Shown here piece after piece: positions 1,492-63,704 of a stretch of DNA of 64,000 nucleotides; position 1 is the stretch's first letter, and each line of letters opens with the position of its first letter. The notes beneath the pieces are model-generated. The model had not been told where the DNA came from, did no database searches, and saw nothing but the letters and a program-made list of their open reading frames with translations. Origin of the DNA: Evansella clarkii (lineage in GTDB: Bacteria; Bacillota; Bacilli; Bacillales; Salisediminibacteriaceae); assembly GCF_002019695.1 (NCBI RefSeq), contig NZ_KV917376.1, positions 1,139,293-1,203,292 of the forward strand, given 5' to 3'. The translations under genes were made by a program, and so were the position numbers.

Positions 1492-1722
1492 TTGAAATGG
1501 TTCTTATTAAAAGCAATTCGGTTTTATCAGCGTTTCATTTCGAGATATACGCCGCCTTCCTGCCGGTTTTATCCTACCTGTTCTCATTACGGGATGGAAG
1601 CGGTACAGCGGTTCGGAGCAGCTAAAGGCGGATGGCTGACAATAAAGAGAATCCTTAAATGTCATCCATTTCATCCTGGAGGCTTTGATCCTGTTCCGGA
1701 GAAAACAGAAAAGAAACGATAA
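1492..1722 (+). CDS. yidD: membrane protein insertion efficiency factor YidD
   Basis: A small (76-residue) YidD-family protein. It has the hallmark [19 protein letters not shown] pattern near the start, then a conserved [13 protein letters not shown] stretch near the C-terminus. Family members sit at the inner face of the membrane through an amphipathic helix and help YidC/Sec insert membrane proteins. A TTG at 1492 is 6 nt after GAGGTG, which suits it best; a GTG at 1483 would add three residues (Val-Leu-Ile). Position between rnpA and yidC is the standard bacterial arrangement. Confidence 0.93.
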
Positions 1723-5141: not shown

Positions 5142-7058
5142 ATGAATTATCACGGCGGAGACTACGACGTTATAGTGATCGGTGCCGGCCATGCAGGAGT
5201 TGAGGCGGGCCTTGCCGCAGCCAGAATGGGAGCGGACACCTTAATGCTGACACTTAATCTGGATGCCGTTGCATATATGCCCTGCAACCCTTCCGTAGGG
5301 GGACCGGCCAAGGGAATAGTAGTACGGGAAATAGACGCACTTGGCGGAGAAATGGGACGGAACATCGATAAGACTCATATTCAGATGAGAATGCTGAATA
5401 CAGGGAAAGGACCGGCGGTACGCGCACTGCGTGCTCAGGCAGATAAATATTTATATCAGCATGAAATGAAGAAGACAATTGAAGAAACTGAAAATCTTAT
5501 GCTCCGCCAGGGAATGGTGGAAGAACTTATCGTGGAAGACGGCGAGGTAAAAGGGGTAGTTACACAGACTGGCGCAAAATATAACGCTAAGACGGTAATT
5601 ATTACTACTGGTACCTATCTGAGGGGGAAGGTAATAATTGGCGACCTGGCTTATGAGAGCGGGCCGAATAATATGCAGCCTTCTGTGAATCTTTCTTATC
5701 ACCTTCAGGACCTTGGTTTTGAGATGGTTCGTTTTAAGACAGGGACACCTCCAAGAGTTAACAGTAATACAATTGACTACAGTAAAACAGAGATTCAGCC
5801 TGGAGATGATGTTCCAAGAGCATTCTCCTATGAAACAACAAAATATATTACAGACCAGCTTCCTTGCTGGCTGACTTATACGAATGAAGAAACACATCAT
5901 TTAATTAATAATAACCTTGACCGGTCCCCAATGTATTCGGGTATGATTGAAGGAACCGGCCCTCGTTACTGCCCGTCAATTGAAGATAAAATTGTCCGGT
6001 TTAATGACAAACCAAGGCATCAGGTCTTCCTTGAACCGGAAGGAAGAAATACGCAGGAAGTGTATGTACAGGGACTTTCTACGAGTCTGCCGGAAGATGT
6101 GCAGATGAAAATATTAAAAACCGTGCCTGGACTGGAAAATGCACGGATGATGCGTGCTGGCTATGCAATTGAATATGATGCAATGGTGCCAACGCAGCTT
6201 TGGCCATCCCTTGAAACAAAGAAAATAAAAGGGCTGTTTACTGCTGGACAGATTAACGGAACAAGCGGCTATGAAGAAGCTGCAGGCCAGGGAGTTATGG
6301 CGGGGATAAATGCAGCGCTTTCCGTGCAGGGGAAAGATCCGCTAATTTTGGACCGGTCGGAAGCTTATATTGGTGTACTGATTGATGACCTTGTTACTAA
6401 AGGAACTAACGAACCATATCGCCTGTTAACTTCCAGAGCGGAGTATCGCTTACTTTTACGCCATGACAATGCGGACCTCCGGCTGACTGAAACCGGCCAT
6501 AAGATCGGCTTAATAAGCGAAGAGCGATACGAGCGATTCCTGGAAAAGAACAGGGAAATCGATAAAGAGATTAAACGCTTAAAAAATACAGTTATTAAAA
6601 TGACTGATGAAGCGCAGAAGGTTATGGAAGAAGCGGGAACTGCCGCACTAAAGGACGCCATCAATGCGGCTGTACTGCTTAAAAGACCCGAAATAACATA
6701 CGGGCATGTAGCGAAGCTTGTGCCTCCGGAAGCACCTGTAAACGAAGATGTTGCGGAACAAGTGGAAATCCAGATAAAATATGAGGGATATATAGCGAAG
6801 CAGATGGAACAAGTAGAGAAACTAAAAAAGATGGAAAACAAGAAACTCCCTGAAGACCTTGATTACTCGGCTATAAACGGACTGGCAATTGAAGCCAGAC
6901 AAAAATTAGCGGAGGTGAAGCCATTATCAGTAGCTCAGGCTTCCAGAGTTTCCGGAGTTAATCCTTCAGACGTTTCTGTTCTGCTTGTATATTTGGAGCA
7001 GGGAAGACTAAAAAAAATCAACTCCAGTGAAGAATCTTCTTCTTCCTTAGCTGAATAA
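5142..7058 (+). CDS. mnmG: tRNA uridine-5-carboxymethylaminomethyl modification enzyme MnmG
   Basis: An FAD-dependent partner of MnmE, 638 residues (B. subtilis 628). The N-terminal dinucleotide-binding motif [14 protein letters not shown] is followed by the GidA signatures [11 protein letters not shown] and [17 protein letters not shown], and the helical C-terminal domain binds MnmE. It has an AAAGGAGTG ribosome site. It is 17 nt from rsmG, so mnmE-mnmG-rsmG reads as one unit. The C-terminal Ser/Glu-rich tail ([11 protein letters not shown]) is an extra compared with many homologues. Confidence 0.97.
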
Positions 7059-62530: not shown

Positions 62531-62572
62531 AAGAAAACTAGTACTCACTCTTAAAAAGTGAGTACTAGTTAT
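62531..62572 (-). terminator. terminator of the secreted-protein gene
   Basis: A 14-bp stem AACTAGTACTCACT / AGTGAGTACTAGTT followed, on the minus strand, by TTCTTTTTA. Confidence 0.9.
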
Positions 62573-62579
62573 TCAATAG

Positions 62580-63281
62580 TTATGGTCTTGATATTACATA
62601 CGTGTATTTTACCCCGTCAATTGTAATAGATTCATTTTTTGAATGCTGATTTTGACTAAGTGAACCAGATACATCGCTTTGATAAAGCTCTTCAGTACCA
62701 TTATCATATTGAGCAAATAAGTCATAAGTGACATTATAACCTGTTATATTTCCCCTAGGGTTTCTTGTTTCCGTTACTACAAAATTCTTAGCAACAAAAC
62801 CTGTAAGAGCTGCCACTGCTTCACTTTCTTTAAACTCCTGTTCTACAGAGTCATTACCAACAAAGGAAACATGGCTTTTACCAGCCTGCATAACAACGCT
62901 TGCTGTAATTTCATATGTTCCTGGAACTAAGCCTGTGAAAGAAGCTTCAGATACATAAAAGTCTGCCAGCTCTTCAGATCCCTCTTCTAGAGGAAGTGTA
63001 ACAAGGTTAGTTTCCCCTTCTTCTAATGTACCTTTGTCACTGGAATCTTCTTCAGATCCTAATTCTTTAAAACTCCATTTAACATCATAGCTGGAACCCT
63101 TCTTTTTTGTAACAGCTTCCAATTCAACACTCTCACCTTCATAAACTACTTCTACTAGTTCTGTAACTTGAAGACTGACATCAGCTTCTTTCTCTTTTGG
63201 TGCTGGACCTTTGGCTAATGCTCCTCCCGCGATTGAGAACAATAATACACCAGTTAATAGCGCTGCCCCTAGTTTTTTCAT
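62580..63281 (-). CDS. secreted protein of unknown function under a tandem RNA leader
   Basis: A 233-residue protein with a signal peptide MKKLGAALLTGVLLFSIAGG, cleaved after ALA at about residue 23. The mature part is acidic and strand-rich with Thr/Ser/Val-heavy segments (for example VPGTYEITASVVM), like an immunoglobulin-type fold, and has no Cys. No family is recognised. It is monocistronic: its own terminator follows, and the long leader holds the two 73-nt motif copies. The ATG at 63281 has AGAGGAG 9 nt upstream, and that site lies in a hairpin. Confidence 0.8.
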   Translation of the reverse strand: MKKLGAALLTGVLLFSIAGGALAKGPAPKEKEADVSLQVTELVEVVYEGESVELEAVTKKKGSSYDVKWSFKELGSEEDSSDKGTLEEGETNLVTLPLEEGSEELADFYVSEASFTGLVPGTYEITASVVMQAGKSHVSFVGNDSVEQEFKESEAVAALTGFVAKNFVVTETRNPRGNITGYNVTYDLFAQYDNGTEELYQSDVSGSLSQNQHSKNESITIDGVKYTYVISRP

Positions 63282-63292
63282 CTCTCATTTCT

Positions 63293-63328
63293 CCTCTTAG
63301 ATAAAAGTATTTTATAAAACCTAAGAGG
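63293..63328 (-). promoter_or_regulatory. hairpin that can hide the ribosome binding site
   Basis: On the minus strand CCTCTTAG (63328-63321) pairs perfectly with CTAAGAGG (63300-63293), with an inner ATAAAA/TTTTAT stem. Its right arm contains the AGAGGAG ribosome site (63297-63291). Its left arm overlaps the 3' end of the second motif copy (63323-63328), so the two structures compete. Confidence 0.65.
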
Positions 63329-63395
63329 GCCGGTTACACTAGTGGCTCCGTATTGCCCAAGTGTCCAGATAAAGGCAATACTTCATAGCTTCCCC
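63323..63395 (-). ncRNA. tandem leader motif, copy B (73 nt)
   Basis: Minus-strand copy nearest the gene. Stem TATTGCC/GGCAATA (complement of 63374-63380 and 63351-63357) closes the loop TTTATCTGGACACTTG. The 3' block AGTGTAACCGGCCCTCTT could pair with the loop (GGACACT with AGTGT-CC) as a pseudoknot and with the 5' AAGGGG as an outer stem. Confidence 0.65.
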
Positions 63396-63400
63396 TTTAA

Positions 63401-63473
63401 CAGAGGGCCGGTTACACTACCAGTTCCATATAACCCAAGTGTCCAGGTAAAGGTTATACTTCATCACTTCCCG
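63401..63473 (-). ncRNA. tandem leader motif, copy A (73 nt)
   Basis: Same length and layout as copy B, beginning CGGGAAG. The stem is TATAACC/GGTTATA (complement of 63452-63458 and 63429-63435): two base pairs differ from copy B on both sides, so pairing is kept. The loop TTTACCTGGACACTTG differs by one base; the 3' block AGTGTAACCGGCCCTCTG is nearly identical. Confidence 0.65.
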
Positions 63474-63704
63474 TGAAAACGTACAGTTCATCCTGTCCTT
63501 CTTGTGGCCACAATTATGTAAGGAGTACTGTATAAATTGTTTATAATTAGGGATAAGAGAAAAAGGTATAAAATTCCTTCGACACTTTAAGACGGCGATT
63601 TTATGATTTAGCAGATTTTTGTAAGTGATGAAAACCAGGAAAAAACAGAATTAATTAGTCGAAAAAGATAGCTGGAAATTATTCAATTATATTTAAATTT
63701 TATA
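63474..63704. other. divergent region before the merR promoter
   Basis: No gene. It should contain the minus-strand promoter for the tandem leader. A short palindrome TGTGGCCACA lies at 63503-63512. I cannot read a convincing -35/-10 pair. Confidence 0.35.

Follow-up and report, generated by a model that had tools for sequence, protein, structure and literature searches.

The window analysed here, a stretch of 64,000 nt from contig NZ_KV917376.1 of Evansella clarkii, carries close to its right end two similar RNA elements in tandem on the minus strand, repeated with a period of 78 nt. The original prediction, made from the sequence alone, had described two tandem 73-nt copies on this strand; the tandem and its position stood, and the 73 nt gave way to the 78-nt period. 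We refer to the upstream copy as A and to the downstream copy as B. The features of the locus, in the order of the minus strand and with the coordinates inside the aptamers checked by script, are:

63579..63584, minus strand: TGTCGA, conserved, resembling a Spo0A box
63540..63545, minus strand: TATAAA, candidate −10 box, conserved in position
63504..63511, no strand assigned: palindrome GTGGCCAC, in the predicted early 5′ UTR
63397..63479, minus strand: aptamer A, c-di-GMP-II (RF01786, 67.9 bits, over the cut-off)
63470–63472 and 63403–63407, minus strand: P1 of A, 5′ strand GGG and 3′ strand CCCUC
63452–63458 with 63429–63435, minus strand: P2 of A
63438–63444 with 63410–63418, minus strand: pseudoknot of A
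63392..63407, minus strand: linker CCCUCUGUUAAAGGGG, 16 nt, predicted to form a hairpin between the P1 3′ strand of A and the P1 5′ strand of B (folding, −5.1 kcal/mol; shuffle tests)
63319..63402, minus strand: aptamer B, c-di-GMP-II (RF01786, 72.0 bits, cut-off 53.5)
63392–63395 and 63321–63329, minus strand: P1 of B, 5′ strand GGGG and 3′ strand
63374–63380 with 63351–63357, minus strand: P2 of B
63360–63366 with 63332–63340, minus strand: pseudoknot of B
63293..63328, minus strand: expression platform, a 10-bp hairpin predicted to hide the Shine-Dalgarno (SD) sequence, with the P1 3′ strand of B as left arm (folding; layout shared by related leaders)
63291..63295, minus strand: SD sequence AGGAG, its first three bases within the hairpin
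62580..63281, minus strand: controlled gene, an open reading frame for a protein of 233 aa that has a signal peptide, as judged by eye, and matches neither a Pfam nor an NCBIfam family above the cut-off
62536..62570, minus strand: hairpin 3′ of the gene resembling an intrinsic terminator (consensus match only)

Both copies matched the Rfam model RF01786 over its full length (model positions 1–84), A with 67.9 and B with 72.0 bits against a cut-off of 53.5. They are c-di-GMP-II riboswitch aptamers and thus belong to a known class; as both lie above the Rfam cut-off, a chance likeness was dismissed. The original prediction had assigned the copies to a class that it did not recognise, an assignment that does not survive the match of both copies to RF01786, the very outcome set beforehand as refuting, and a new riboswitch class is thereby ruled out. 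With the c-di-GMP-II-GCG model (RF03170) copy A scored 27.1 bits where 47.9 are required. Copy A was absent from the cmscan listing of the window and was found in the genome search, where its match overlaps that of B by 6 nt; most likely the overlap rule dropped it from the listing.

In an ungapped comparison running from P1 to P1, A and B share 62 of the 81 positions; within the core they share 50 of 62. As predicted, the P2 stems (TATAACC/GGTTATA in A, TATTGCC/GGCAATA in B) differ at two base pairs and are completely paired in both copies, and the loop GGACACT is complementary to AGTGTaaCC in A and B alike, which yields the pseudoknot. The near-invariance claimed for the loop and the 3′ block was seen in the 16-nt loop, which contains one difference, and in the 18 nt TAGTGTAACCGGCCCTCT, which are identical in both copies; it did not extend to the first part of the 3′ block. 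The minimum free energy of the leader was ordinary (z = −1.28), and the folding energy of the whole leader was discarded as evidence.

Relatives were sought with scans of 9 genomes of the genus (the own genome included), 35 of the family (30 matched), 397 of the order (146 matched), 398 of the class (85 matched) and two further families with 7 genomes each, and with a tandem-pattern search of the named genome collection, in which 3 contigs matched. In all, we found at least 11 loci with two adjacent aptamers:

GUGU-type, six loci: the window, G163, G103, G039, G233 and G453 (G233, from an uncultured Bacillaceae, and L024 are one locus by coordinates and sequence)
Clostridia, two loci: Anaerovirgula multivorans (L023) and Proteocatella sphenisci (L025)
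Variant type, three loci: G496, G500 and G580, with copies under the RF01786 cut-off

In the other 8 genomes of the genus that were scanned, one of them 76% complete, the tandem was not found. In all 11 tandems found the ends of the two models are spaced by −8 to +9 nt, and in 8 of the 11 they overlap; among the matches listed, no close pair with room for a terminator was seen by eye. cmscan, with its overlap rule as run, lost one copy in all six overlapping GUGU-type tandems, the window included, so that fused tandems can pass as single riboswitches. At the clostridial loci L023 and L025 the models are free of overlap, and there both copies were listed. The variant loci (L031, L032 and L033, corresponding to G496, G500 and G580) are GGUCGC/GCGA tandems that precede a similar 25-aa hydrophobic peptide; at the gathering score cmscan reported only copy B of L032, as c-di-GMP-II-GAG (40.8 against 40). 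Near the c-di-GMP-II tandem of L023, two c-di-GMP-I aptamers and one c-di-GMP-I-GGC aptamer were observed (1331–1602 and 6860–6941, minus strand). The host itself carries single c-di-GMP-II aptamers at C1:2543648–2543731 (L001), before a gene that reads as type IV pilin-like, and at C1:2581208–2581291 (L004), before a gene that reads as GGDEF-EAL; behind the latter, a terminator-like hairpin was seen by eye.

For the analysis of covariation, a regular expression was used to pick 54 aptamers from the loci collected here; several c-di-GMP-II matches, among them copy B of G103, copy B of G580 and L004, lie outside this set. Pairing was found in 97.6% of cells for P2, 99.7% for the pseudoknot and 90.7% for the inner 3-bp helix, and in only 64.7% for P1. 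Compensatory changes that keep P2 and the pseudoknot, of the kind first noticed between A and B, were present in the set: 11 of the 14 pairs had changed on both sides, and while the regular expression fixed several bases, which makes the invariance partly a product of construction, the pair combinations observed were not forced by it. None of 500 shuffles came up to the covariation score that the structure as a whole attains in these 54 aptamers. One pair of the pseudoknot occurs as G-C (30), A-U (19) or U-A (5), and the window has A-U where the Rfam consensus has G-C. This difference could be taken as a sign of another ligand, read by a new class or by a relative of c-di-GMP-II; given that the identical A-U pair is found in 19 of the 54 aptamers and that both copies match RF01786 at full length and far over the cut-off, we regard such a reading as extremely improbable.

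The SD hairpin was confirmed as the perfect 8-bp helix that had been predicted (63321–63328 with 63293–63300), which folds as 10 bp, and the folding energy of the platform segment is −12.5 kcal/mol. Since the P1 3′ strand of B, CCCUCUUAG, is at the same time the left arm of this hairpin, the full P1 of B and the SD hairpin share 8–9 nt and exclude one another, in agreement with the exclusion of copy B folding and SD hiding that was originally proposed. The same competition was found at seven further loci, so that it covers all six GUGU-type loci including the window and both clostridial ones. We searched the genomes of the order for the platform pattern TGTAACCGRCCCTCTTA...TAAGNGGAG and found it at 12 places in 11 of the 397 genomes, and nowhere with the reversed control. 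By eye, five of these places are tandem, six are single and one (G075) has a decayed remnant upstream.

Because the left arm of the SD hairpin doubles as the P1 3′ strand of B, c-di-GMP should switch translation ON. We modelled the switching by folding each leader with the P1 helices forced or free, in a version restricted to the strands and in a version comprising the whole leader; G500 was omitted, as its 4-nt linker bars both P1 helices at once. In the strand-only model of the window, the probability of an open SD was 0.34 with free helices, 0.34 with P1 of A, 0.73 with P1 of B and 0.69 with both; the whole-leader model gave 0.35, 0.33, 0.78 and 0.69, respectively. The SD is thus predicted to open upon formation of P1 of B. 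Among the 10 loci scored with the strand-only model, opening increased with B in 8; it was weak in L024 (0.39 with both P1 helices) and G453 (0.48–0.51), and in the whole-leader model of G453 it fell to 0.01 with B alone. G496 and G580 showed no opening in the strand-only model.

These cases bear on the notion that the switch follows OFF or other logic, with the SD staying hidden when B is bound, or with the ligand mainly taking up the SD-binding CCCUC of A. The P1 3′ strand of A (CCCUCU) is likewise anti-SD-like in sequence, and in the three variant-type loci P1 of B starts with just 2–3 pairs and no opening was predicted in the two that were scored. At the window, 8–9 nt in the arm of the SD hairpin are claimed by P1 of B and an open SD is predicted by the models; in C. 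difficile, class II elements work as ON switches according to the part of the literature consulted (PMC6200980). We therefore consider OFF or other logic unlikely, and ON-switching by B quite probable.

The aptamers are separated by the 16-nt linker, in which no terminator-like site, no gene start and no second platform were found. Nothing stands between the aptamers and one SD hairpin follows B, the layout of a dual-aptamer device with one platform; a platform of its own for each aptamer, as in a pseudo-cooperative arrangement, was not seen, the platform being fused to copy B only. Two independent riboswitches in series would be in line with the published classing of c-di-GMP-II doublets, as far as the available text of the review goes (PMC9481103). 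Against such a series stand the short linker, lacking both a terminator-like site and a gene, and the convention of a 2025 survey, in its accessible part, by which aptamers less than 20 nt apart are adjacent and share a single platform (PMC12452182), so that we hold it to be very improbable. That this locus is a c-di-GMP-II riboswitch of two fused aptamers, with a single platform that hides the SD, is well supported.

The possible pairing of the P1 3′ strand of A with the P1 5′ strand of B goes beyond the original prediction, as does the promoter-side module described below. If the linker hairpin formed, it would be predicted to exclude P1 of A as well as P1 of B. Ten linker hairpins were better overall than shuffles of the whole linker (Fisher p 8e-8). 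When the four end bases were kept in the shuffles, p was 0.0015, with the signal coming from L023, L025 and G496; in all six GUGU-type loci the complementarity beyond the four end bases was non-significant (inner-shuffle p 0.13–1.0). In these loci the complementarity may therefore just reflect the presence of two similar P1 helices. At L057 (G075) an upstream aptamer remnant, judged as decayed by eye, adjoins an intact aptamer (1531–1614, minus strand), and the linker hairpin is kept. That the hairpin has outlasted the decay of A is evidence against a strictly inhibitory linker.

Coupling from A to B was calculated from the same foldings. The strand-only model gave −3.3 kcal/mol in the window and negative values in 9 of 10 loci; the whole-leader model gave +0.5 kcal/mol in the window, meaning no coupling, and negative values in 8 of 10 loci. 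The two energy models thus disagree on A–B coupling at the window, and cooperativity through A appears somewhat doubtful.

B may be the only functional copy, with A a redundant or decaying duplicate that chance has preserved, although we consider this rather unlikely. The platform occurs with a single aptamer at 6 of the 12 places, and copy A of G075 has decayed (by eye). G163, a tandem, and G174a, a single aptamer, control proteins that are 54% identical. At the window, the in-register P1 of A consists of just three consecutive pairs, and A departs from 3 of the 28 columns that are conserved at ≥90% among the 54 aptamers, whereas B keeps all 28. However, two of the three departures restore a base pair: in the inner helix of A, U-A replaces a near-invariant C-G and is the sole U-A at this pair among the 54. 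With this compensatory double change, with 67.9 bits and with P2 and the pseudoknot intact, copy A looks maintained. At 5 of the 6 platform places that have two copies, both also appear intact, and two-aptamer layouts recur across several families and in Clostridia. A recent duplication of A and B was rejected as a general origin of the tandems; among five GUGU-type loci (G103 was left out, its copy B having been missed by the regular expression) A and B are mutual nearest relatives in G163 only.

The 13 platform leaders (the 12 places and G453) all stand before genes whose products have a signal peptide, as judged by eye, and several protein families are represented. The 233-aa protein resembles the secreted proteins behind related leaders at most weakly in sequence: MAFFT alignments gave 19–28% identity and BLAST just a 25-residue N-terminal match. 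Its only relative in the 35 family genomes was itself, and none was found in the plasmid collection. The structure model had a mean pLDDT of 46.8 and a pTM of 0.34, and was confident only for residues 157–233, which contain beta strands. In addition to the 54% shared by the proteins of G163 and G174a, those of G039 (tandem) and G365 (single) are 51% identical, which argues that the number of aptamers changes before orthologous genes, and makes G163/G174a a natural pair for gauging the contribution of a second aptamer. Behind the clostridial tandems L023 and L025 lie genes for large proteins that contain SdrD_B or SpaA domains, in agreement with the surface anchor proteins noted in the available part of the review (PMC9481103). 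For the 233-aa protein we infer a surface or biofilm role.

Upstream of the aptamers, the palindrome GTGGCCAC precedes the first aptamer in 10 of the 13 platform leaders (the window, L049–L052, L054–L056, L058 and L060), with a shuffle expectation of 0.01; it is missing from G039, G075 and G453. L055 and L060 are 87% identical, leaving about nine independent loci. In all 10 leaders TGTCGR starts 68–80 nt and TATAWW lies 31–41 nt upstream of the palindrome; the expectation for both is 0.003 of 10, with spacing ranges that were fixed after inspection of the leaders. Elsewhere in the upstream 100 nt the leaders have diverged, with a median of 0.31 for ungapped identity. We also looked at 42 aptamers that have no platform directly behind them: GTGGCCAC was found within 170 nt in 4, all of them copy A of platform tandems, and in none of the other 38. 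In its own genome, WNGTGGCCACNW occurs at 4 places compared with 13 for the reversed control, and the site in the window is the only one of the 4 without a frame of more than 90 aa across it. With TATAAA as the −10 box, the palindrome would sit roughly 20–28 nt into the transcript. The E. clarkii genome contains one Spo0A_C gene. The module of TGTCGR, −10 box and GTGGCCAC that these leaders have in common probably governs transcription, and the palindrome is possibly an operator in a Spo0A-linked promoter; among 15 of 474 literature matches, judged by title, nothing was found on GTGGCCAC as a bacterial operator. The palindrome with its fixed spacing to TGTCGR and TATAWW suggests that secreted proteins linked to c-di-GMP have a regulator so far unnamed.

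Taken together, we propose a translational c-di-GMP ON switch in which two c-di-GMP-II aptamers act on one platform, a reading to which we give a probability of roughly 0.8. In the absence of ligand, the P1 3′ strand of B would serve as the left arm of the SD-covering hairpin and little protein would be made. Binding of c-di-GMP to B would stabilise its P1, which would take up this strand and so uncover the SD. No platform belongs to aptamer A, whose P1 3′ strand could pair with the P1 5′ strand of B; ligand bound to A would then release the latter and should help P1 of B to form. Ligand binding, the ON direction in the cell and the help from A we infer.

A more far-reaching version of this switch, which we put forward tentatively and regard as doubtful, is a chain of alternative pairings running from the 5′ to the 3′ P1 strand of A, on to the 5′ and 3′ strands of B and finally to the SD. 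Ligand binding to the first aptamer would unlock the second, and true cooperativity would arise with one platform. The Spo0A-like box, −10 box, GTGGCCAC, one or two aptamers and the SD hairpin would then make up a cassette that is placed before different secreted-protein genes in different families. Such a cassette would combine a sporulation and biofilm regulator, a palindrome-binding factor and c-di-GMP at one gene and, to our knowledge, would be the first dual-aptamer c-di-GMP device of this kind.

Several known systems can be compared with the ON switch proposed here. Both copies share P1, P2, the inner helix and the pseudoknot with c-di-GMP-II (RF01786); the window differs by its fused aptamers with overlapping model ends, its A-U pseudoknot pair and its SD-hiding platform. 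In C. difficile, class II c-di-GMP elements are transcriptional ON switches, one of them acting also via splicing (PMC11477304, in the portion seen), and those described in the consulted part of PMC6200980 turn on adhesin and pilin genes. The models c-di-GMP-II-GAG and -GCG (RF03169, RF03170) belong to the same clan as RF01786, and G496, G500 and G580 are like c-di-GMP-II-GCG in their GGUCGC-type loop (GAUCGC in copy A of G580) and GCGA block; the copies in the window match RF01786 instead.

Tandem c-di-GMP-II riboswitches have been published before, with 59 doublets and 9 triplets in the excerpt available from the review (PMC9481103). Its Table 1, as read in flattened form, files them under multiple expression platforms; according to the same excerpt most of them precede genes for surface anchor proteins and they come mostly from Paraclostridium and its relatives, and some overlapping matches were discarded and treated as a single riboswitch (PMC9481103). 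The window shares the two c-di-GMP-II aptamers with these tandems, and L023 and L025 seem to be of the published kind, whereas the window has one platform, comes from Bacilli and, like its relatives, precedes small secreted proteins. In the sections seen of the 2025 survey, adjacent single-platform aptamers are enriched only in Pseudomonadota (PMC12452182). We found no fused single-platform c-di-GMP-II pair in the parts consulted of the literature on tandem and class II riboswitches; the tables of PMC12452182 may include such pairs.

A comparable layout is that of the glycine tandem riboswitch, in which two like aptamers share one platform and for which cooperativity has been reported, as stated in the accessible text of the review (PMC9481103). 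The original prediction had drawn this comparison, and it is apt for the layout; the likeness stops there, since the fold and the ligand of the glycine riboswitch are unrelated to those of c-di-GMP-II. If our reading is right, c-di-GMP would join glycine and guanidine-II among the ligands that two aptamers sense by way of a single platform (PMC9481103, Table 1 as available). What is new about the locus would seem to be the unusually tight packing of the aptamers and their shared SD switch, in a riboswitch class that is itself familiar.
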